Assembly: GCF_023702125.1 (NCBI RefSeq)
Contig: NZ_CP098415.1
Coordinates: 248,001-312,000, forward strand
Length of the DNA: 64,000 bases
Reading direction: 5' to 3'
Source of the DNA: Halorubrum hochsteinianum
Lineage (GTDB): Archaea; Halobacteriota; Halobacteria; Halobacteriales; Haloferacaceae
Shown one piece after another: positions 4,661 to 47,363 of the stretch; the stretch's first letter is position 1, and every line of letters begins with the position of its first letter. Under the pieces are notes generated by a model. It was not told where the DNA came from. It ran no database searches and saw only the letters and a list, made by a program, of their open reading frames with translations. Position numbers and translations under genes: made by a program.

Positions 4661-5908
4661 TCAGATCCCCTGTCCCATCAGGTGGCTGCGGAGGACGTCG
4701 GGCGTCTTCAGCCCGGCGTCGCTGTTGAGCAGGACGACGGTCTCGTCGCCGTCGAAGAAGCCGTCCTCCGCGAGCGCCCACGCGCCGGCGGGGGCCGCCC
4801 CGCCCGTCGCGCCCATCTCGACGACCTCGTTCTGCGCCACGGCGACCGCGCTCGCGAGGATGTCGTCGTCGTCGACGCCGACCGCGGTCCCGCCGCTCTC
4901 CTCGACCGCCTCGACCGCCGCGCCGCCGCCGGCGGGGTCCGGGATCTCCAGTTCGCCGCAGATCGTGTCCGGCGTCTCCCACGGCTCCGGCTCCGCGAGG
5001 CCGCGCTCCACGGCGGCCGCGATCGGCGCGCAGCCGGACGCCTGCGCCGCGACGACGCGCGGGGTCCCGTCGATCGCGCCGATCCGGTCGAGCTCGACGA
5101 ACCCCTTGTGGACCCCGGCGACGACTTCGCCCGAGCCGGTCGGGACGACGACGACGTCGGGGGCGTCGCCGAGGTCGGCGACGAGTTCGAACGCGACCGT
5201 CTTCGCGCCCTCGTGGCGGTACGGCGTGACGAACTCGCCGAGGTCGGTGTACTCCGTCTCGAGCTGCTCGTCGACCGCGGCGGCCGCGTCCGGGAAGCGC
5301 CCGCCGACCACGCGCATCTCGCCGCCGTGGACGTTCGTCATCGACTTGTTCGAGAACGCACAGCGCGAGGGGACGAACGCGTACGAGCGCAGGTCCGCCC
5401 GGCCCGCGTACGCCGCCATCGACTGCCCGGCGTTGCCGGGGCTGGCGCAGACGAGCGGCTCCACGTCGGCCCCGTCGGCGACCCGCTTCGCTACCGCCGT
5501 CATCGCGAGCGAGAGGCCGCGGTCGAGGACGGTTCCGGTGGGGTTCCGGCCCTCGTCTTTGACGTACACCGCCTCGACGTCGAGTTCGTCCGCGAGCCGG
5601 TCGGTTGCGACGAGCGGCGTGCCGCCCTCGCCCGCGGTCAGCGCGTCCTCGGCCGAGAAGGGAAGCAGCGCGTCGAAGCGCCAGTGGCCGCGGGCGGTCG
5701 CGGGCGCGGTCCGGGCGTCGCCGCTCCCCCCGCGGGCCGCGGGGTCGAACAGCGCGTCCGGGTCGACCGCGTCGTAGTCGTACACGGGGTCGAGTCCGCG
5801 CGCCCGCTCGTCGGCGTCGACCGCCGCCGCGTCGGCGGTCTCGTGAACGCGTCCCGACGCCCGACTCTCCAGCCCGCGAAACGCCGGCGTGGTCTCGAAG
5901 TCAGCCAT
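4661..5908 (-). CDS. Threonine-synthase-like fold-type II PLP protein lacking the expected PLP lysine
   Basis: The 415-residue protein matches threonine synthase along its length: GEGGTPLVATDRLADEL, VYVKDEGRNPTGT, CASPGNAGQS, a phosphate-loop-like VVPTGSGEVVAG and C-terminal LLNSDAGLK. In active threonine synthases the block reads NPTGSFKDRG, and its Lys forms the Schiff base with PLP. Here it reads NPTGTVLDRG, with Leu128 where the Lys should be; I checked this on the DNA around 5530-5545. Other landmarks are intact and the frame is clean, so it is not obvious decay. It may be a non-catalytic paralog, or use another Lys such as the one in VYVKDEG. It stands alone, with no homoserine kinase or dehydrogenase beside it. 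Confidence 0.75.
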   Translation of the reverse strand: MADFETTPAFRGLESRASGRVHETADAAAVDADERARGLDPVYDYDAVDPDALFDPAARGGSGDARTAPATARGHWRFDALLPFSAEDALTAGEGGTPLVATDRLADELDVEAVYVKDEGRNPTGTVLDRGLSLAMTAVAKRVADGADVEPLVCASPGNAGQSMAAYAGRADLRSYAFVPSRCAFSNKSMTNVHGGEMRVVGGRFPDAAAAVDEQLETEYTDLGEFVTPYRHEGAKTVAFELVADLGDAPDVVVVPTGSGEVVAGVHKGFVELDRIGAIDGTPRVVAAQASGCAPIAAAVERGLAEPEPWETPDTICGELEIPDPAGGGAAVEAVEESGGTAVGVDDDDILASAVAVAQNEVVEMGATGGAAPAGAWALAEDGFFDGDETVVLLNSDAGLKTPDVLRSHLMGQGI

Positions 5909-5987
5909 ACCGAACCTTGCGGCGGCGGCGACTAATCGCTTCGCACTCGGCGGCGGACCGCCGTCGGACTGACTCGGCGAAATGCGG

Positions 5988-6375
5988 TGGCGCGCGCCTG
6001 CGAGCGGCCGCCCTCGGCGGCCGCGAGACAGCGCGTGCGAGGGAGTCGCGAGCGATCGGGCGACCGCAGGGAGCCCAAAGCGAGCGACGAGGCTGGGGAG
6101 GCGTGAGGCGCGGTTGCGGTGCTGGGCGGGACTCGAAGGGGCAGCCGGGAGGCGAGCGCAGGCGACGCAAGCACCGCAACGAGGGAGCGAACGGAGTGAG
6201 CGACCGAGTGAGGCGCACAGCGAGCGTGCGCCCGCCTCCAGGCTGGGGCTTCGGTGGTGTCCGTGTCGATCGGCGGCTTATAAACAAAAACGCGGTCGCA
6301 CGGCCGAGCGGCTGGGACTTCGGAAACGGACCCCTCGATCTGCGATATATATACGGCGGCGGTCGCGACCGGTCA
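5988..6375 (+). repeat. Structured intergenic repeat, copy A
   Basis: The gap 5909-6415 has no convincing gene. It holds a GC-rich element related to those at 15238-15660 and 29180-29508. Landmarks: a GC-rich hairpin (gcggccgcc/ggcggccgc) near 6004-6023; the block gacgaggctggggaggcgtg at 6086-6105; gggcgggactcgaaggggca at 6124-6143. A long stem pairs 6142-6160 with 6227-6245 (17 of 19 positions). Its 3' end (ggctggggcttcgg, from 6241) recurs imperfectly 69 bases later at 6310. Open frames across it are not protein-like. It ends just before the promoter of the gene at 6416. Confidence 0.7.
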
Positions 6376-6415: not shown

Positions 6416-7738
6416 ATGAACGGAGACGCCACCGTCGTCGGCGGCGGCCTCGCGGGACTGGTCGCGGCGCGGCGGCTCGCCGAGGCGGGCGCGGACGTGA
6501 CGCTGTACGAGCGACGGCCCGAGGTCGGCGGGCGCGTGCGGACGGAGACGGTCGACGGCTTCACGCTCGACCGCGGCTTCCAGGTCCTCTTCACCAGCTA
6601 CCCCGCCGTCGAGCGCGAACTCGGCGCGGACCGCCTCGACGACCTCGACATGCGGACGTTCGCGCCCGGCGCGACGATCTGCCGCCCGGGGTCGCGTTCG
6701 GTGCTCGGAGATCCCCTCCGCGACCCGCTGTCGGCGATTCCCTCGCTCCTGAACGACGAGGTCTCCTTCTCCGACAAGCTCCGCACCCTCGCGCTCCGGT
6801 ACGACCTCTCGCAACGCGATGAGGGCGAGTTCTTCGCGGGCCCCGACGCGCCGATCCGCGAGTACCTCCGCGAGTGGGGGTTCGCCGGCGACCACGTGAC
6901 GAACTTCGTGGAGCCGTTCTACGGCGGGATCACCTTGGACCGGACCCTCTCGACCTCGAAGCACGTCTTCGAGTACACGTTCCGCGCCATGGGCCGGGGG
7001 TCGATCGGCGTGCCGGCCGACGGGATGGCGGCCCTCCCCGCCGCGCTCGCCGACCGCGCCCGCGAGGCCGGCGTCGAGATCCGGACCGGCGAGGACGTGG
7101 AGTCGGTCCGGGTCGCGGGCGGGGGGCGGATCCCGTTCCGGACCGGCCGCGGCGAGGCCGAGGGCGCGACCGTCGAGCTGGCGGACGGCTCGACGCGCGA
7201 GACGGACGCGGTCGTCGTCGCCGCCTCGCCGCCGGAGGCCCGCCGGCTCACGGGCGTCGAGTCGGTCCCGACGGAGGGAGTCCCGAACGTCACCGGGTGG
7301 TACGCGCTCCCCGCGGGCGAGTCGTTCGAGACGGGCGAGCGGATCCTGCTCAACGCGGCCGGGGAGTCGCCGAACGCCGTGGTCCCGATGTCGGAGGTCG
7401 CGCCCGAGTACGCGCCCGACGACCGGGCGCTGCTCGCCGCGACGTTCCTCGGCGAGGGGTCGCTGGAGCGCGACGACGCCGACCTCCGCGACGACGTGCG
7501 CGACGCGCTGGCGGCGTGGTACCCCGACCGCGACTTCGCCGGGCTGGAGACCGTCGACGTCCACCGGATCCGGTTCGCGCAGTTCGCGCAGCCGCCCGGC
7601 CTCCACGCCGGCCTCCCGGACCCGGACGACCCCGAGGGGCCTGTGGTCCTCGCCGGCGATTACACCGAGTGGTCGTCGATACAGGGCGCGTTGGAGAGCG
7701 GTCGGACGGCGGCCGCCGTCGCGGGCGACTACGTATAA
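6416..7738 (+). CDS. NAD(P)/FAD-dependent oxidoreductase of the amine oxidase / protoporphyrinogen oxidase type
   Basis: The 440-residue flavoprotein starts with a dinucleotide-binding fold: ATVVGGGLAGLVAARRLAEAG, then the E-rich second strand VTLYERRPEVGGRVRTE. The C-terminal FAD motif is VVLAGDYTEWSSIQGALESG. The middle (SFSDKLRTLALRYDL, EPFYGGITLDRTLSTSKHVF, GVPADGMAALPAALADR) matches phytoene-desaturase/protoporphyrinogen-oxidase relatives. The substrate is not evident. It is distinct from the better phytoene desaturase candidate at 21997. The upstream palindromic TATA box supports the first ATG. Repeat copy A lies immediately upstream. Confidence 0.8.
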   Translation: MNGDATVVGGGLAGLVAARRLAEAGADVTLYERRPEVGGRVRTETVDGFTLDRGFQVLFTSYPAVERELGADRLDDLDMRTFAPGATICRPGSRSVLGDPLRDPLSAIPSLLNDEVSFSDKLRTLALRYDLSQRDEGEFFAGPDAPIREYLREWGFAGDHVTNFVEPFYGGITLDRTLSTSKHVFEYTFRAMGRGSIGVPADGMAALPAALADRAREAGVEIRTGEDVESVRVAGGGRIPFRTGRGEAEGATVELADGSTRETDAVVVAASPPEARRLTGVESVPTEGVPNVTGWYALPAGESFETGERILLNAAGESPNAVVPMSEVAPEYAPDDRALLAATFLGEGSLERDDADLRDDVRDALAAWYPDRDFAGLETVDVHRIRFAQFAQPPGLHAGLPDPDDPEGPVVLAGDYTEWSSIQGALESGRTAAAVAGDYV

Positions 7739-15070: not shown

Positions 15071-15237
15071 GGTCCTCTCGACTCGGCGCTAAGAGCGTCC
15101 CGGGAGAAAAGCCCCGTAGATCCGGCGGTCCGCGTGGGGTTATCGTTTCAGTCCGGCGAGCAGATCGGTGAGGCCGACCGTGGATAGTATTTAAAACCGC
15201 AGGAGGGAGTGACGACGACAATTTATAAAACGACGCT
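15071..15237. other. Non-coding stretch with TATA-like sequences upstream of repeat copy B
   Basis: No gene is seen. Two AT-rich spots occur, tagtatttaaaa (15185-15196) and tttataaaa (15222-15230). The second is a possible promoter for a transcript beginning inside repeat copy B, about 25 bases further on. Confidence 0.4.
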
Positions 15238-15660
15238 GTGGCGCGCGCCTCCGAGCGGCCGCCCCCGGCGGCCGCGAGGAGCGCGTGCGAGGGAGTCGGG
15301 CGCGCCGAGGACGACCGAAGGGAGTCCGACGGACGCGCCCGACGAGGCTGGGGAGGCGTGAGGTGCGGTCGGGGCGGGAATCGAAGCGGCAGCCGTGAGG
15401 CGGGCAGAGGCGAAGTAAGCACCGCAGCGAGGGAGCGGCAGCGACTGAGCGAGGAGCGCAACGAGCGTCTGCCCGCCTCACGGCTGGGGCTTCGGAGGTG
15501 TCCGTGTCGGTTAAGCCGTTATAAATAAGACAAACGGCGTACAGCCGAGCGGCTGGGGCTTCGGCCGTGTTCGTGTCGATCGTTTTCGTATAAACAGCAG
15601 CGTAGTATCGAGCGACTGGGGGTTCGGTAGTGCTCGTGTCGATTAGCGATTTATCAGACC
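15238..15660 (+). repeat. Structured intergenic repeat, copy B (most complete)
   Basis: This is the best preserved of three related elements. It begins gtggcgcgcgcct, as copy A does. A perfect 10-base hairpin follows (15295-15304 with 15334-15343), then the block gacgaggctggggaggcgtg from 15341. Next comes a perfect 18-base stem (15390-15407 with 15469-15486) around a loop containing taagcaccgcagcgagggag. After the stem, the 3' end sequence (ggctggggcttcgg, then cgtgtcg) appears three times, starting at 15482, 15551 and 15614. Each copy is followed by an AT-rich spot such as ttataaat or tataaac. It fills the gap downstream of purNH. Frames crossing it change between copies, arguing against protein coding. 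Confidence 0.75.
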
Positions 15661-28537: not shown

Positions 28538-29110
28538 TCAGATCCGGTCCGAGTCCACGTACACGTCGAGGTCGACGTCGCGGCTCGACCCCTCGAGGTC
28601 GCGCACGGCGCGCTCGACCACGCGCTCCGCCTCGCTCCGGATCAGCGGGATCGCCTTCTTCAGCACCCAGTCGAACGAGACCAGCCGCGGGAGGTCGAGC
28701 GCGTCGGAACTGGCCGAGCCGGGGTCGAACTCGACCTCCAGCGCGACCTCGCAGGGCGCGTCCGTGTTCGGACCGTCGTCGGTCGCGTCGCCGTCGCTCG
28801 CGCGCTCGTCACCGGCTCCGGTCTCGGGGGGCGTCACCCGCCAGCAGCCACCGGCGTCGATGTCCTTCGTGATCTCCCAGTCGATCCGCCTCGGGGGCTC
28901 GACGCCGGTCACCTCCGAACGCGCGGTGTAGGATATCTTCCACCACGCGAAGGTGAGCGCGTACCGGGTGCCGGGGCCGCCGTCGCCCGTCACCGTCCGG
29001 ACCTCGCTGAGGTACTCGGAGTAGTTCGCGTACCGCGGGAAATCGAGCAGGAAGTCGTACACCTCCTCGGGGTCGGCGTACACCTCCGTACTCACGACGA
29101 GTTCGTCCAC
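28538..29110 (-). CDS. SRPBCC / START-like (polyketide cyclase-type) protein
   Basis: The 190-residue protein has the beta-grip pattern of SRPBCC ligand-binding proteins: VVSTEVYADPEEVYDFLLDF, PRYANYSEYLSEVRTV, then GPGTRYALTFAWWKISYTAR and PRRIDWEITKDIDAGGCWRV. The final long helix is KKAIPLIRSEAERVVERAVR. An acidic insertion (about residues 98-118) interrupts the fold. These proteins carry hydrophobic ligands in the cytosol; no ligand can be named. A TATA-like box (tttaataag on the minus strand, near 29135) lies about 25 bases from the ATG at 29108-29110. Repeat copy C lies just upstream. Confidence 0.75.
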   Translation of the reverse strand: MDELVVSTEVYADPEEVYDFLLDFPRYANYSEYLSEVRTVTGDGGPGTRYALTFAWWKISYTARSEVTGVEPPRRIDWEITKDIDAGGCWRVTPPETGAGDERASDGDATDDGPNTDAPCEVALEVEFDPGSASSDALDLPRLVSFDWVLKKAIPLIRSEAERVVERAVRDLEGSSRDVDLDVYVDSDRI

Positions 29111-29179: not shown

Positions 29180-29508
29180 TTCCGACACGTCGGCCGAGAC
29201 CGCCGAAGTCCCAGCCGTACATGGCCAAACCCAGCGCGAACGACTTCGTGACCGAGGCCTCCGAAGCCCCAGTCGCGAGGACTCGGTGCGCTCGCTGCGC
29301 TCCTCAGTCGCTCGTTTCACTCGCTCCTTTCGGTGCTTACGTCGCGCGCCTTCGCCCTCGCGACTGCCCCTTCGAGTCCCGCCCCACACCGCTCCGCACA
29401 GCACCTCACGCCTCCCCAGCCTCGTCAGTCGCCGTCGCTCCGCTCCGGCGACTGACTCCCTCGCGCGTGCTGTTCGGCCGCGGGGCGGCCTCACGGGCAC
29501 GCGCCACC
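29180..29508 (-). repeat. Structured intergenic repeat, copy C (reverse orientation)
   Basis: The gap 29111-29622 holds a third copy, on the minus strand. It begins ggtggcgcgtgcc and has a perfect 11-base hairpin (29446-29456 with 29424-29434). The invariant block gacgaggctggggaggcgtg follows, then gggcgggactcgaaggggca. The main stem (29356-29366 with 29270-29280) is perfectly paired over 11 bases with a sequence different from copies A and B. The 3' end sequence recurs at 29274 and 29216 (ggctgggacttcgg). The gap lies between the divergent SRPBCC gene and the ABC exporter. Confidence 0.7.
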
Positions 29509-29622
29509 GCTTCCGGTTCGCTCGTTCGGTGGCGATAGACGGGCGGGAAATTCCCTCGCCTGAGACCCGGAACGGGCCGCCGAAGGCGTCGGATACATGG
29601 GAGTCCCGCCGCTCGTACACCC

Positions 29623-31761
29623 ATGGCCGCAGACGACCGCAACGCCTTCGAAGTGTATCGCGACCGGGTCGACCGGCCGCTCGGGCGGCTGTTCCGCGAG
29701 TACGGCGCGCCCCAGGCGCACTGGCTCGTGACCGGGATGGTCGCCAACGTCGTCGCCCGCGTCGCGGGACTGATCCCGCCCGTCGTCCTCGGCGTCGCCA
29801 TCGACGCCATCTTCACCGGCACGGGGCCCTACACGCTCCCCGTCGTCCCGGACGCGTGGCTGCCGACCGAGGACGGCGCGCAGTTCCGGCTCTCGATGCT
29901 CCTCATCTTCGGGTCGTTCGTCGTGACGGGCGTGTTCACGTACATCTACGGCATCGCCGCGAACAACTTCGCCCACCGCGTGATGCACGAGGTCCGGACC
30001 GACTCGTTCGACCAGATGCAGCGGCTCGACATGACGTTCTTCGACGAGAAACAGACGGGAGAGGTCATGTCCGTCCTCAACAACGACGCGTCGAACCTTG
30101 AGGTCTTCTTGGACAACGCCTTGCAGAACTCCGCTCGGCTCGGCGTGATGGTGGTCGGCATCGCGGGCGTGTTGGTGTACTACAACTACGAACTCGCGGT
30201 CGTCACCCTCGCCGCCATCCCCCTGATGATCCTCCTCACGCTCTGGTTCATGCGCGCGGTGGAGCCGCGGTACGTCGCCCAGCGCTCGGTCGTCGGCGAC
30301 CTCAACACCGCCCTCGAAAACGCGCTCTCGGGCGTCGAGCTGGTGAAGACCTCCAACACGGAGGCGTACGAGAGCGAGCGCGTCGAGGACGCCTCCCACT
30401 CGTACTTTCAGCGGACGATGTCGATCCTCCGGCTCAACTTCGTCTACCGGCCCGGAATGGAGCTACTCGCCGGGCTGGCGTTCGCGACCACGTTCGCAGT
30501 CGGCGGGTACTGGCTGGAGAACGGCGCTCCCGGACCGTTCACGACGGAGCTGACCGTCGGGACGTTCGTCACGTTCATCCTCCTCACCCAGCAGTTCGTC
30601 GCCCCGCTCGCCGAGGTGTCGAACATCATCGACCAGTACGAGAACGCGAAGGCCTCCTGCGAGCGCGTGTTCGGACTTCGCGACATCCCGGTCCGCATCG
30701 AGGACGCGGACGACGCGGTCGAACTCGGCGGCGCACAGAGCGACGGCGGGACCCGCGACGGCGGCATCCGGAACGACGGCGGGACCCGCGACGGCGACCG
30801 GACGCCCGCCCAGGGAGGCGATCACGGCGGCGTCGCCGGGGCGGTCGAGTACGACGACGTCTCGTTCGCCTACCCCGAGAACGCCCTGATGGACCCCGCC
30901 GAGGCCGACGAGCGGGTCCTCCGCGGCGTCTCCTTCTCGGCCGATCCGGGCGACACCGTCGCGCTGGTCGGACCGACGGGGGCGGGGAAGTCGACGCTGC
31001 TCAAGCTCCTCCTCCGACTGTACGACGTCACCGACGGCGCGATCTACGTCGACGGCCACGACGTCCGCGACGTGACCGTCGAGAGCCTCCGCTCGTCGGT
31101 CGGCTACGTCGCGCAGGACACCACGCTGTTCGACGGGACCATCGCCGAGAACATCCGCTACGGGCGGTTCACGCGGATCGACGAGGACGGGAGTGAGGAC
31201 GACGGCGGAGACGGAGGCGGTGGCGGCGGCGACGAGGAAGCGATCCGCGAGCGCGTGATCGAGGCCGCGAAGGCCGCCGAGGCCCACGAGTTCATCTCCT
31301 CGCTGCCGAACGGCTACGAGACGCGGATCGGCGAGCGGGGCGTGAAGCTCTCCGGCGGCCAGCGCCAGCGGCTCGCCATCGCCCGGGTGGTGCTTCAGGA
31401 CCCCGCAATCTTGATCTTAGACGAGGCGACCTCGGCGGTCGACACGGAGACGGAGATGCTGATCCAGCGCTCGCTCGATCGGCTCGCGGCCGACCGCACC
31501 ACCTTCGTCATCGCGCACCGGCTCTCGACGGTGACCGACGCCGACACCGCGCTCGTGCTGGAGGACGGCGCGGTCGTCGAGCGGGGGAGCCACGAGGAGC
31601 TGCTAGCCGAGGACGGACTGTACGCGAAGCTCTGGGGCGTCCAGGCCGGCGAGATAGACGAGCTACCGGAGGAGTTCGTTGAGCGCGCCCGCGAGCGTCA
31701 CGTCGAACGCGCGGTCGAGCGAGCGACGGAGAGCGAGGTCGACTCCGAGACGCTGGAGTGA
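29623..31761 (+). CDS. ABC exporter, fused transmembrane and ATPase domains
   Basis: The 712-residue half-transporter exports lipids, drugs or other compounds as a dimer. Six membrane helices lie in about residues 30-340 (including VTGMVANVVARVAGLIPPVV), and the coupling region carries MQRLDMTFFDEKQTGEVMS. The ATPase domain follows from about residue 410: Walker A GPTGAGKST, Q-loop VAQDTTLFDGTI, signature KLSGGQRQRLAI, Walker B AILILDEATSAVD and switch His IAHRLS. Two Gly/Asp-rich linkers are unusual. One (about 367-405) joins the membrane and ATPase parts; the other (about 519-538) sits between Q-loop and signature. The C-terminus is long and charged. A TATA-like box (ggatacatgg) lies near 29594. 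Confidence 0.88.
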   Translation: MAADDRNAFEVYRDRVDRPLGRLFREYGAPQAHWLVTGMVANVVARVAGLIPPVVLGVAIDAIFTGTGPYTLPVVPDAWLPTEDGAQFRLSMLLIFGSFVVTGVFTYIYGIAANNFAHRVMHEVRTDSFDQMQRLDMTFFDEKQTGEVMSVLNNDASNLEVFLDNALQNSARLGVMVVGIAGVLVYYNYELAVVTLAAIPLMILLTLWFMRAVEPRYVAQRSVVGDLNTALENALSGVELVKTSNTEAYESERVEDASHSYFQRTMSILRLNFVYRPGMELLAGLAFATTFAVGGYWLENGAPGPFTTELTVGTFVTFILLTQQFVAPLAEVSNIIDQYENAKASCERVFGLRDIPVRIEDADDAVELGGAQSDGGTRDGGIRNDGGTRDGDRTPAQGGDHGGVAGAVEYDDVSFAYPENALMDPAEADERVLRGVSFSADPGDTVALVGPTGAGKSTLLKLLLRLYDVTDGAIYVDGHDVRDVTVESLRSSVGYVAQDTTLFDGTIAENIRYGRFTRIDEDGSEDDGGDGGGGGGDEEAIRERVIEAAKAAEAHEFISSLPNGYETRIGERGVKLSGGQRQRLAIARVVLQDPAILILDEATSAVDTETEMLIQRSLDRLAADRTTFVIAHRLSTVTDADTALVLEDGAVVERGSHEELLAEDGLYAKLWGVQAGEIDELPEEFVERARERHVERAVERATESEVDSETLE

Positions 31762-44144: not shown

Positions 44145-46235
44145 ATGACTCCGGGGCCCGTACGGGTGCTGCTCGCGGACGGCGACGACGCGTTCGCCGA
44201 CGCGCTGAGCGACGCGCTCGATCGGGCCCCGGCGGCCGCGGCGGTGTCCCGCGTCCGCGACCACGCCGCCGCCGTGGCCGCCGTGGAGGCCGAGCCGTAC
44301 GACTGCGTCGTCACCGAGTACGACATCGACGGACCGGGGGGCGAAAGCGGGGGGGACGACCGGGACGAGTCCGCGGTCGACGACGCCGCGAGCGGACTCG
44401 ACGTCCTCCGTCGCGTCCGCGAGCGCGACCCGGCGCTTCCCGTGTTCCTCGTCACCGGAGCGGGAAGCGAGCGGGTCGCGGCCGCCGCCGTCGACGCCGA
44501 CGCGACCGGGTACCTCCGGAAGGGGAGATCGGCCGGGGACGAGGGGAGCGTCGCCGAGGCGCTGGCGGAGCGGATCGGCGGCGCGGTGGCGGCCTACCGG
44601 TCGGAGTCGCGGCCGCGCGCCATCGGCGAGGACCGCGCCGAGATCCTCGACCGGATGGCCGACGGCTTCGTCGCCGTCGACGCGGACGACGCGATCACGT
44701 ACCTCAACGCGCAGGCGGCCGCGCTCGCCGGCACGGTGGACGGCTCCGAGAGCGGGGCAGAGGGTGCGGAGGGTGCGGAGGGTGCGGAGGGTGCGGAGGG
44801 TGCGGAGGGTGCGGAGGGTGCGGGGAGGCGGGGCGACGCCGCGTCGGACAGCGAGGCGGGCGAGAGCGAGCCGGCCGACGCGGACGCGCTCGTCGGGACG
44901 AGCCTCTGGGACGCGTTCCCGGACGCCGCCGGGACGGCGTTCGAGACCGCCTTCGAGCGCGCCCGGGAGACCGGCGAGCCGACCGAGGCGCGGACGTACT
45001 ACGAACCGGCCGCCAGCTGGTTCGAGGCGCGGATCTACCCGTCCGCGAGCGGCGTCTCGGTGTACTTCCGCGACGTCACCGAGGCGGTCGAAGAGCGGGA
45101 GGAGATACAGCGCCGGGAGCGGGTGATGCGCCGGCTCTACGAGATCATCTCGGCGAAGGACGACCCGTTCGAGGGGAAAGTCGAGAAGCTGCTCGCGCTC
45201 GGACGCGACGTCCTCGGCGCGGAGTCGGGGCTGCTCTCGCACGTCCAGGGAGACCGGTACGTCGTCGAGGTCGCCGACGACGCGACCGGGTCGTTCGGGG
45301 AGGGAGCGGTGGTCGACCTGTCGGAGACCAACTGCGAGCGCGTGGTGTCGACGGCGGCCTCGGTTCAGGTTCGCGACGTCGCGTCCGACCCGGAGCTGTC
45401 AGCGCGCGCCGGGTTCGTCCGGCAGGGTATCTCTTGTTACGTCGGCGCGCCCGTTGTCGTCGACGGGGAGGTGTACGGGACGTTCTGTTTCTACGACGGC
45501 GAGGACAGGCCGGAGCCGTTCTCCGAGTGGGAGGCGACGCTGGTCGACCTGATGGCCCGCTGGGTCGGGTACGAACTGGAGCGCCGGGAGACCCAAGCCG
45601 AGATGCGCCGCGAACGCGACCGCCTCGAACAGTTCGCGAGTGTCGTGAGCCACGACCTCCGTAGCCCGCTCAACGTCGCCGCGGGCAACGTCGACCTCGT
45701 TCGGGAGTCGGTCGACGACGAACGGCTGGCGCGGACGTCGAAGGCGCTCGACCGCATGGGGGAGCTGATCGCGGACGCGCTCTCGTTCGCCCGCCTCGGC
45801 GAGCGCGTCGTCGACGCGGAGGCCGTCGACCTCGACCGCGTGGTCGAGGAGGCGTGGGGGACGACCGCGACGGGCGACGCGACGCTGGCGGCGGCGGCGC
45901 TCGGCACCGTCGTCGGCGACGCCTCGCGGATCCGGACGCTGTTCGAGAACCTGTTCCGAAACGCGGTGGAACACGCGGGCGACGCCCCGACCGTGAGGGT
46001 CGGCTGGGACGACGACCTCCTCTACGTCGCCGACGACGGATCGGGAATCCCGGAGGAAAAGCGCGAACGGGTCTTCGAGACCGGGTACACGACGAGCAGC
46101 GAGGGGACGGGGTTCGGGCTCGGCATCGTCAAGGCGGTGGCCGAGGCCCACGGGTGGACCGTGCGGGCCGCCGCCGCGGACGGCGGCGGCGCGCGGTTCG
46201 AGTTCGGCGACGTGGTCCGCCGCCGGGGCGACTGA
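44145..46235 (+). CDS. Soluble hybrid histidine kinase: degenerate receiver, PAS, GAF, HisKA, HATPase
   Basis: The 696-residue protein has no membrane helices. A receiver-like domain (1-135) starts [12 protein letters not shown]; the phosphoacceptor Asp position in [11 protein letters not shown] is Glu58. A PAS domain (about 165-315) is interrupted by a repeated Gly-Ala-Glu stretch. A GAF domain covers about 325-470. The kinase core has H-box [13 protein letters not shown]-box [12 protein letters not shown]1 [18 protein letters not shown] and G2 [12 protein letters not shown]. It therefore senses a cytosolic signal. No response regulator is adjacent. A GGAGG at 44132-44136 lies about eight bases before the ATG, so translation may use a leader. 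Confidence 0.85.
44757..44819 (+). repeat. 9-base tandem repeat in the kinase gene
   Basis: Seven consecutive units (first gcagagggt, then six identical gcggagggt) encode Ala-Glu-Gly repeats inside the PAS domain region. Identical units suggest copy number can change without shifting the frame. Confidence 0.93.
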
Positions 46236-46311: not shown

Positions 46312-47256
46312 ATGGAGACCCGACGCGCGCTGCTCGTCGACGCGTTCGCCGCGGAGCCGCTGGCCGGGAACGCCGCCGGCATCCTCCTCGACGCCGAGGG
46401 ACTGAGCGACGACCAGATGGCCGCCGTCGCCGCCGAACTCGGTGCCTCGGAAACGGCGTTCCGCACGGACGGCGACGGGGCGACCGACGCGGGGGAGGAG
46501 AGCGATGACGGGGAGGCCGTCGACGACCGGCTCCGGTACTTCTCGCCGAGCACGGAGGTCGACCTCTGCGGCCACGCCACGGTCGCGACGTACGGCGCGC
46601 TGTTCGCCGAGGGGGCGATCGACGGGGGCGAGCGCACGCTCCGCACGAACGTCGGCGAGCTCACGGTCTCGGTCGACGACGACGGGACCGTCTGGATGCG
46701 ACAGCAAGCACCGAGCGTGGAGGTCGTCGAGGTCGACGCCGGTCGACTCGGGGCGGCGCTCGGGATCGACCCCGCCGCGCTGCGCGACGTGGGCGCTGAC
46801 CTCCCCGTCGCGGTCGCGTCGACCGGCCTGCCGTTCCTCGTCGTCCCCGTGAACTTCCTCGAACGCCTCGGCGAGGCCGACCCGGACGACGAGGCGATCG
46901 AACGCCTCTCCGAGGAGTTCGACGCGGCGGGCGTGTACGCGTTCACCTTCGACACGCTCGAAGGCGACTCGACGCTCCACGGCCGGGCGTTCGTCCCGTC
47001 GCTCGGTATCTCGGAGGACCCGGTCACGGGGACCGCGAGCGGCGCTGTCGGCGGATACCTCCGGCACGTCGACGCGTTCGACGGGGACGAACCGGACGGG
47101 CTCCGCTTCGAGCAGGGCCACTTCCTCGACCGGCCGGGGCACGTCCGGGTCCGCGTGGAGGCGGACGGGGTCCGCGTCGGCGGCCGAACGTCGGTCGCGC
47201 TCGACGGCGAGATCCGGATCCCCGACGACGACGAGGACGAGATCATCGAGGCGTGA
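46312..47256 (+). CDS. PhzF-family isomerase/epimerase-like protein
   Basis: The 314-residue protein has the two-halved PhzF fold: LVDAFAAEPLAGNAAGILLD at the start, GASETAFR with the conserved catalytic Glu, LRYFSPSTEVDLCGHATVA, and in the second half EDPVTGTASGAVGGYL. PhzF proteins isomerise or epimerise small acids; only some take part in phenazine synthesis, and no phenazine genes are nearby. An acidic insertion (GDGATDAGEESDDGEAVDD) follows the Glu. ATG 46312 lies 27 bases from cctttttgtcc. The 28-base repeat array starts 13 bases after the stop. Confidence 0.82.
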   Translation: METRRALLVDAFAAEPLAGNAAGILLDAEGLSDDQMAAVAAELGASETAFRTDGDGATDAGEESDDGEAVDDRLRYFSPSTEVDLCGHATVATYGALFAEGAIDGGERTLRTNVGELTVSVDDDGTVWMRQQAPSVEVVEVDAGRLGAALGIDPAALRDVGADLPVAVASTGLPFLVVPVNFLERLGEADPDDEAIERLSEEFDAAGVYAFTFDTLEGDSTLHGRAFVPSLGISEDPVTGTASGAVGGYLRHVDAFDGDEPDGLRFEQGHFLDRPGHVRVRVEADGVRVGGRTSVALDGEIRIPDDDEDEIIEA

Positions 47257-47268
47257 GCCGCCGCGTCG

Positions 47269-47363
47269 GTCACGTCTCGTCGGTCACGTCCCGTCTGTCA
47301 CGTCTCGTCGGTCACGTCCCGTCTGTCACGTCTCGTCGATCACGTCCCGTCTGTCACTCTCGT
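47269..47363. repeat. Tandem 28-base (2 x 14) repeat array
   Basis: Three units at 47269-47296, 47297-47324 and 47325-47352 plus a partial fourth. Each unit is two related 14-mers, gtcacgtctcgtcg and gtcacgtcccgtct. Unit 3 differs by one base. There are no spacers. It lies between the stop of the PhzF gene and the promoter of the small membrane protein. Confidence 0.93.

Follow-up and report, generated by a model that had tools for sequence, protein, structure and literature searches.

The repeated element described here belongs to a large family of gene-free sequences in which one strand folds into a conserved, strand-specific structure. The scale of the family is far beyond the three copies from which it was recognised: around 100 elements are present per chromosome, and they occur in most salt-loving archaea. 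We give roughly even odds (about 0.5) to the reading that these are gene-less, non-autonomous elements dispersed over the chromosome, the folded strand of which is recognised in trans. An earlier note on this DNA had spoken of a repeat with a covarying stem. This is too modest, as the element has three hairpin domains with invariant tandem G.A pairs, reaches about 100 copies in a genome and is spread class-wide. The element is also longer than the part compared at that time, as a left domain (P1 to P3) lies before the long stem.

The window, which is the whole stretch of DNA analysed, comprises 64 kb of a Halorubrum chromosome from a species close to H. tebenquichense; a purH-like protein neighbouring an element is 99% identical to the H. 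tebenquichense protein. A blastn search with copy B against its own genome returned 40 scored copies. A plain MAFFT alignment of 40 own copies was used to build a covariance model, R1. Three family copies lie within the window, two on the plus strand (A and B) and one on the minus strand (C). These are the three look-alike sequences listed in the earlier note, and R1 recovers them with 116, 136 and 118 bits, respectively (E values of 3e-20 to 5e-24). Besides these, R1 found nothing above 19 bits in the window except the opposite-strand shadow of copy B. The features are as follows.

5984-6270, plus strand: copy A, whole element (R1 match 6124-6257, 116 bits)
6310-6355, plus strand: degenerate downstream unit of copy A, repeat family D12
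15234-15512, plus strand: copy B, whole element, GCKGTGGCGCG ... GGGGCTTCGGAGGTG, with sharp edges defined from 86-89 aligned own-genome copies
15238-15289, plus strand: P1/P2 of copy B, GCGCGCGCCTCC-GA-(GCGGCCGCC ccc GGCGGCCGC)-GA-GGAGCGCGTGC, assigned from the N3-GA pattern and the fold
15295-15343, plus strand: P3 of copy B, hypervariable hairpin GTCGGGCGCGC...GCGCGCCCGAC, a module swapped among orthologues
15341-15371, plus strand: invariant block GACGAGGCTGGGGAGGCGTGAGG of copy B and the G/T-rich linker
15372-15498, plus strand: conserved core of copy B (model R1), GGGCGGGAATCGAAG, the long stem P4 with tandem G.A pairs and GGGGCTTCGG, assigned from R1 (136.1 bits) and pair statistics
15551-15660, plus strand: two more degenerate units 3' of copy B (CGAGCGGCTGGGGCTTCGG..., CGAGCGACTGGGGGTTCGG...), repeat family D12
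about 29250-29510, minus strand: copy C, whole element (R1 match 29258-29384, 118 bits)

According to the gene calls, copy A is flanked by divergent genes at 4661-5908 (minus strand) and 6416-7738 (plus strand), and copy C by genes at 28538-29110 (minus strand) and 29623-31761 (plus strand). Copy B is the best self-match among 52 matches. The invariant blocks that the note saw in all three copies are present, and the compensated stem positions that it quoted hold in the sequences. Pairing of the long stem is likewise kept across copies, but copy A is not paired throughout; its long stem is slightly decayed, with mispairs that are absent from the H. tebenquichense orthologue. Elsewhere in the window are short tandem repeats of 14 nt (47245-47357, CGTCTCGTCGGTCA type) and of 9 nt (44754-44832, GGTGCGGAG).

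The covariance-model search that the note had proposed succeeded strongly. The own genome contains 102 non-overlapping R1 matches, on both strands and all on the 2.96-Mb contig; the 101-kb second contig has no R1 match. In a sample of the class, R1 matched 209 of 292 Halobacteria genomes, representing 61 of the 77 genera sampled, whereas about 200 genomes from other classes of the phylum gave 0 matches. Copies per genome ranged from 2 to at least 106 among 33 positive genomes, and in the Halorubrum chromosomes examined the family makes up roughly 1% of the DNA. A viral or plasmid origin can be rejected: copy B had no blastn match among plasmids and phages, no R1 match was found on viral contigs with a 16-base core pattern (80 of 86 stretches searched), and searches with other family members found a few copies on large, non-mobilizable haloarchaeal megaplasmids, almost all of them unannotated.

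The anatomy of the element was derived from an alignment of 86-89 own-genome copies. Its left edge is sharp, in that nothing but a weak A/T enrichment is common to the copies before GCGGTGGCGCG; on the right, strong conservation runs through GGGGCTTCGGCGGT, after which about 12 bases form a less conserved, subfamily-level tail. The parts are, in order, P1 enclosing P2, the hypervariable P3, GACGAGGCTGGGGAGGCGTGAGG, a G/T-rich linker and P4. The form N3-GA-hairpin-GA-N3' is seen for P1 in 77 of 86 copies, and most of the triplets are complementary (TCC/GGA in 17 and GAC/GTC in 9; TGC is paired with GCA or with a GCA bulged by one base). P4 is built from CGAAG/CTTCG, an internal loop of GGG/GGG, a long stem whose sequence is free, and 2-bp helices that alternate with tandem G.A pairs, and is capped by a GNA or GNNA tip. 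A K-turn reading of the G.A pairs was rejected by inspection, as the loops are symmetric or nearly so. Many copies are then followed by tandem units of 51-69 nt, in each of which CAGCCGAGCGGCTGGGGCTTCGG recurs; the units of any one locus are near-identical. At one locus (L016, G000:C1:452430-452930) seven near-identical 63-nt units follow a single element, and similar arrays with units of 51-66 nt occur at other loci. A CRISPR-like reading of these units was rejected because the would-be spacers are near-identical within an array. At the copy A site of two species (L238, L239), a structured module, CACGGAAGTCGCAGCCCGC ... GCAGGAMCGTCTTCCGG, sits in the element linker and may represent yet another repeat family. 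Head-to-head pairs of P4 cores, 24 to about 180 nt apart, take the place of the Halorubrum left domain in other haloarchaeal genera (L291, L266, L275, L306, L318, L321 and others).

The evidence for a maintained fold comes from the way in which the copies differ. Across 36 base pairs in the 40-copy MAFFT alignment, 97.8% of cells pair, compared to 84.8% +/- 0.6 in shuffles. Change on both sides was seen in 21 pairs, a number reached by 0 of 500 shuffles, so the note's call for a covariation test has been answered with shuffles in place of R-scape. Sliding the structure along the alignment left 29-42% pairing, and RNAalifold, unaided, returned essentially the same structure. The same pattern holds at large distances. 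In 78 distant matches the core GACGNAAGCACYGCAG ... GAGGAGCGCAGCGAG is conserved, and the long stem pairs though its sequence is unrelated across genera. Double-sided change in these 78 affects 31 of 36 pairs, with covariation of 0.648 versus 0.158 in shuffles; this alignment was fitted to R1, so that its paired columns lean to the model, whereas the G.A columns, unpaired there, do not. It should be kept in mind that covariation among paralogous copies can spread by conversion.

The mismatches are as informative as the pairs. Six G.A oppositions (G42.A101, A43.G100, G59.A85, A60.G84, G63.A81 and A64.G80) are retained in 37-40 of the 40 copies, and the 2-bp helices between these invariant tandem pairs covary. 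The A.A and GGG/GGG mismatches of P4 are also nearly invariant and persist in other genera. In well-paired columns, chosen symmetrically, G-U outnumbers A-C by 64 to 13 (20:8 and 44:5). Together, the nearly invariant tandem G.A pairs and the excess of G-T/U over A-C indicate that the fold of one strand is selected. In other words, selection or copying is supported as acting on a folded single-strand structure and not on protein, in line with the note. Protein coding is further rejected by indels that are out of frame and by the position of copies between genes. Template-switch (quasi-palindrome) correction, in which palindromes are tidied and their structure is unselected, would be in keeping with the long perfect stems, the 3-nt loops of the hypervariable hairpins and the rapid turnover of hairpins. 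However, correction would remove the mismatches that stand nearly invariant between covarying 2-bp helices, and it is strand-blind, so it cannot account for P4 or for the preference of G-U over A-C. We regard this explanation as highly improbable overall and refuted for P4; correction could contribute in P2 and P3.

A strong covariation signal alone cannot tell RNA from folded DNA, and the folded strand may be either. The preference for G-U leans toward RNA. The plus strand is also the better RNA folder, by 26 kcal/mol (minimum free energy of -169.7 versus -143.8 for the minus strand), and tandem sheared-type G.A pairs and conservation across the whole class would suit a multi-copy structured non-coding RNA, each copy being transcribed and the folded RNA acting in trans or binding a protein. 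Tandem sheared G.A pairs form in DNA and RNA alike, and in DNA a GNA triloop with a closing C-G pair is exceptionally stable. GNA tips are found in 55 of 87 own copies and in 57 of 66 triloops of distant copies, whereas GNRA is rare (3 of 16 own GNNA loops). Counter to transcription of each copy, the 86 copies have no common promoter: upstream of them, motif information is about 0 from -80 to -20, followed by weak A/T enrichment from -19 to -4. The upstream TTTATAAA was rejected as the element's own promoter, since it accompanies some copies only and is not common to the family; it is plausibly the TATA box of a neighbouring gene. The neutral orientation to genes described below and the lack of Rfam or database annotation also count against a structured RNA, which we consider unlikely. 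Of the note's proposal, a maintained fold that does not serve protein coding is supported; the identification as RNA is tentative in view of the promoter, orientation and tip-loop results. The note could not match the element to a named RNA family, and the Rfam searches agree: over the window, only a tRNA exceeded the gathering threshold of Rfam 15, and four loci of the family gave nothing at E<=0.05.

All but a few of the 84 copies tested for placement are clearly intergenic. The element often starts about 0-40 nt past a stop codon, and its neighbours, read by eye, are housekeeping genes both here and in distant genera, with no mobile-element genes among those read. Such placement, together with a mostly chromosomal location and one site retained across the genus, could reflect an element that acts in cis on transcripts or the chromosome (a 3'-end structure, an insulator, or a topology or nucleoid site), with a role like that of REP/BIME. 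Yet orientation relative to neighbouring genes is neutral. The upstream gene runs with the element in 43 and against it in 40 of 83 cases, and all four neighbour-gene arrangements are occupied, 13 divergent among them, which argues against an mRNA element. Sites also vary widely between species of one genus, and copy number differs from 2 to more than 100 among genomes. A cis-acting role is therefore, in our judgement, doubtful.

Comparison of sites among relatives reveals vertical persistence, turnover of sites, replacement of copies and deletion. The copy A site was followed in about 25 Halorubrum genomes, most of which have the element in the same place and orientation. Variants of this site have differing P2/P3 hairpins, inserted double-hairpin modules and, in several, deletions; two Halorubrum genomes have a short spacer without the element. 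Copy A of the own genome and that of H. tebenquichense hardly differ outside P3, which has been exchanged entirely. At the same site in another Halorubrum (L234), the interior of P4 is inverted between intact long stem arms, which indicates that the stem arms recombine at the DNA level. The copy B site is common to H. tebenquichense and H. xinjiangense. In Halorubrum sp. GN11 the flanking genes of copy B are the same and the element is absent, and in other species an element follows purH in the opposite orientation, beside a different gene. With both flanks required to match, 21 of 30 H. tebenquichense copies lie at loci that hold an element or remnant in the own genome; elsewhere in the genus this holds for 9 of 32 copies (one of the 32 from H. 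tebenquichense). Loss by hairpin deletion was seen directly, and one apparently empty site (L079) was rejected as such because its apparent absence is a P4 deletion. At two sites where occupied and empty forms could be compared no target duplication is seen, but the ends can be placed only imprecisely.

The changes within orthologous copies are bimodal. In 22 orthologous pairs we counted 71 compensated double changes, 12 pair-keeping singles and 17 pair-breaking singles. Some copies differ by many compensated pairs together, the pattern that overwriting by another copy would leave. Little-diverged copies show mostly single breaks, which implies that per-site selection is not strong. At four loci (L423, L424, L428, L437) the element differs from its sister-species orthologue in the own genome by about 0.5% and both flanks by about 4%, whereas at many other sites the element differs more than its flanks. 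Near-identical elements with diverged flanks suggest exchange of the element alone. Since P2 and P3 vary freely at other sites, recent exchange between lineages, and not constraint alone, is indicated.

The known systems provide partial analogies. A link to IS605/TnpB was rejected: no Y1 transposase (PF01797) was found in the own genome, while 5 of 14 genomes served as positive controls, and no significant R1 match was found around its four TnpB genes, which lie away from the elements. REP and PATE elements come closest in kind, and the family departs from both in the transposase, which the own genome lacks. The REP/BIME repeats of bacteria are RAYT-associated, extragenic and palindromic, with about 100 or more copies and tandem units. 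Our elements resemble them as extragenic palindromic high-copy repeats with tandem units and, in some genera, head-to-head pairs; they differ in being several times longer, in their elaborate conserved rod, and in the absence of a Y1/RAYT gene from the own genome and of any GTAG-type guide seen. In the open-access literature we found no description of the family beyond PATEs, the palindrome-associated transposable elements of Haloquadratum walsbyi (PMC3119063). PATEs, too, are gene-less, heterogeneous, palindrome-bearing, high-copy haloarchaeal elements with no target duplication seen, with core deletions and with other small repeats nested inside (PMC3119063). They have palindromes near both ends and are related to IS605-type transposons (PMC3119063). 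Compared by description, our elements differ in that folding takes in their full length and includes conserved tandem G.A pairs, there is no own Y1, and TnpB lies elsewhere; neither IS605-type ends nor mobilisation by a Y1 TnpA was indicated, as judged from the own genome's TnpB loci and PF01797. A module of about 55 nt, (hairpin)CTGCCAGAG(hairpin)CTCGCTGGA, occurs as an insertion at several places in the element (L030, L038, L126, L243, L253) and behaves like the small mobile repeats described inside PATEs. The omega RNAs (sotRNAs) of TnpB/IS200-IS605 are also structured and haloarchaeal, and are transposon-linked (PMC12558985); in contrast, our elements do not adjoin tnpB, stand alone between housekeeping genes and have no significant R1 match at the four TnpB loci. 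Covariation for a one-strand fold, the mark of structured non-coding RNAs, was found here. As with the orphan structured RNAs of the Weinberg/Breaker type (PMC2864571), the family was found by covariation and has no protein product, but it has far more copies per genome than usual, and its transcription is putative.

We return to the reading of the family as non-autonomous elements recognised in trans. The plus strand folds into the left domain (P1 enclosing P2, then P3) and the long rod P4 with its alternation of 2-bp helices and tandem G.A pairs. This fold is maintained, and a candidate trans partner would read it as RNA or single-stranded DNA, driving dispersal. New sites would be colonised slowly; intergenic spaces would tolerate either orientation, with no cis-regulatory role for the element. 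Copies may be kept alike by conversion, both between copies and between lineages, and sites are lost via palindrome deletion. Counter to this, no clean-ended transposition event or target duplication was caught, and the searches for Y1 and TnpB yielded no transposase partner. In contrast to most mobile elements, the family hardly occurs on small plasmids or viruses. In addition, some sites are old, the copy A site being occupied in most Halorubrum compared, and a stable chromosomal function would explain this as well.

A bolder and less likely form of this reading is that one common tandem-G.A rod, in RNA or single-stranded DNA form, is made or exposed by all of the roughly 100 chromosomal copies in a cell, and that a putative dedicated protein recognises this rod to spread, convert or organise the copies. 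If true, this would be a new kind of structure-copied chromosomal element, class-wide in haloarchaea. The family is absent from RNA-family libraries and almost never annotated where checked on megaplasmids. It offers hundreds of natural variants of one fold, and its structure and partner are testable in culturable species.
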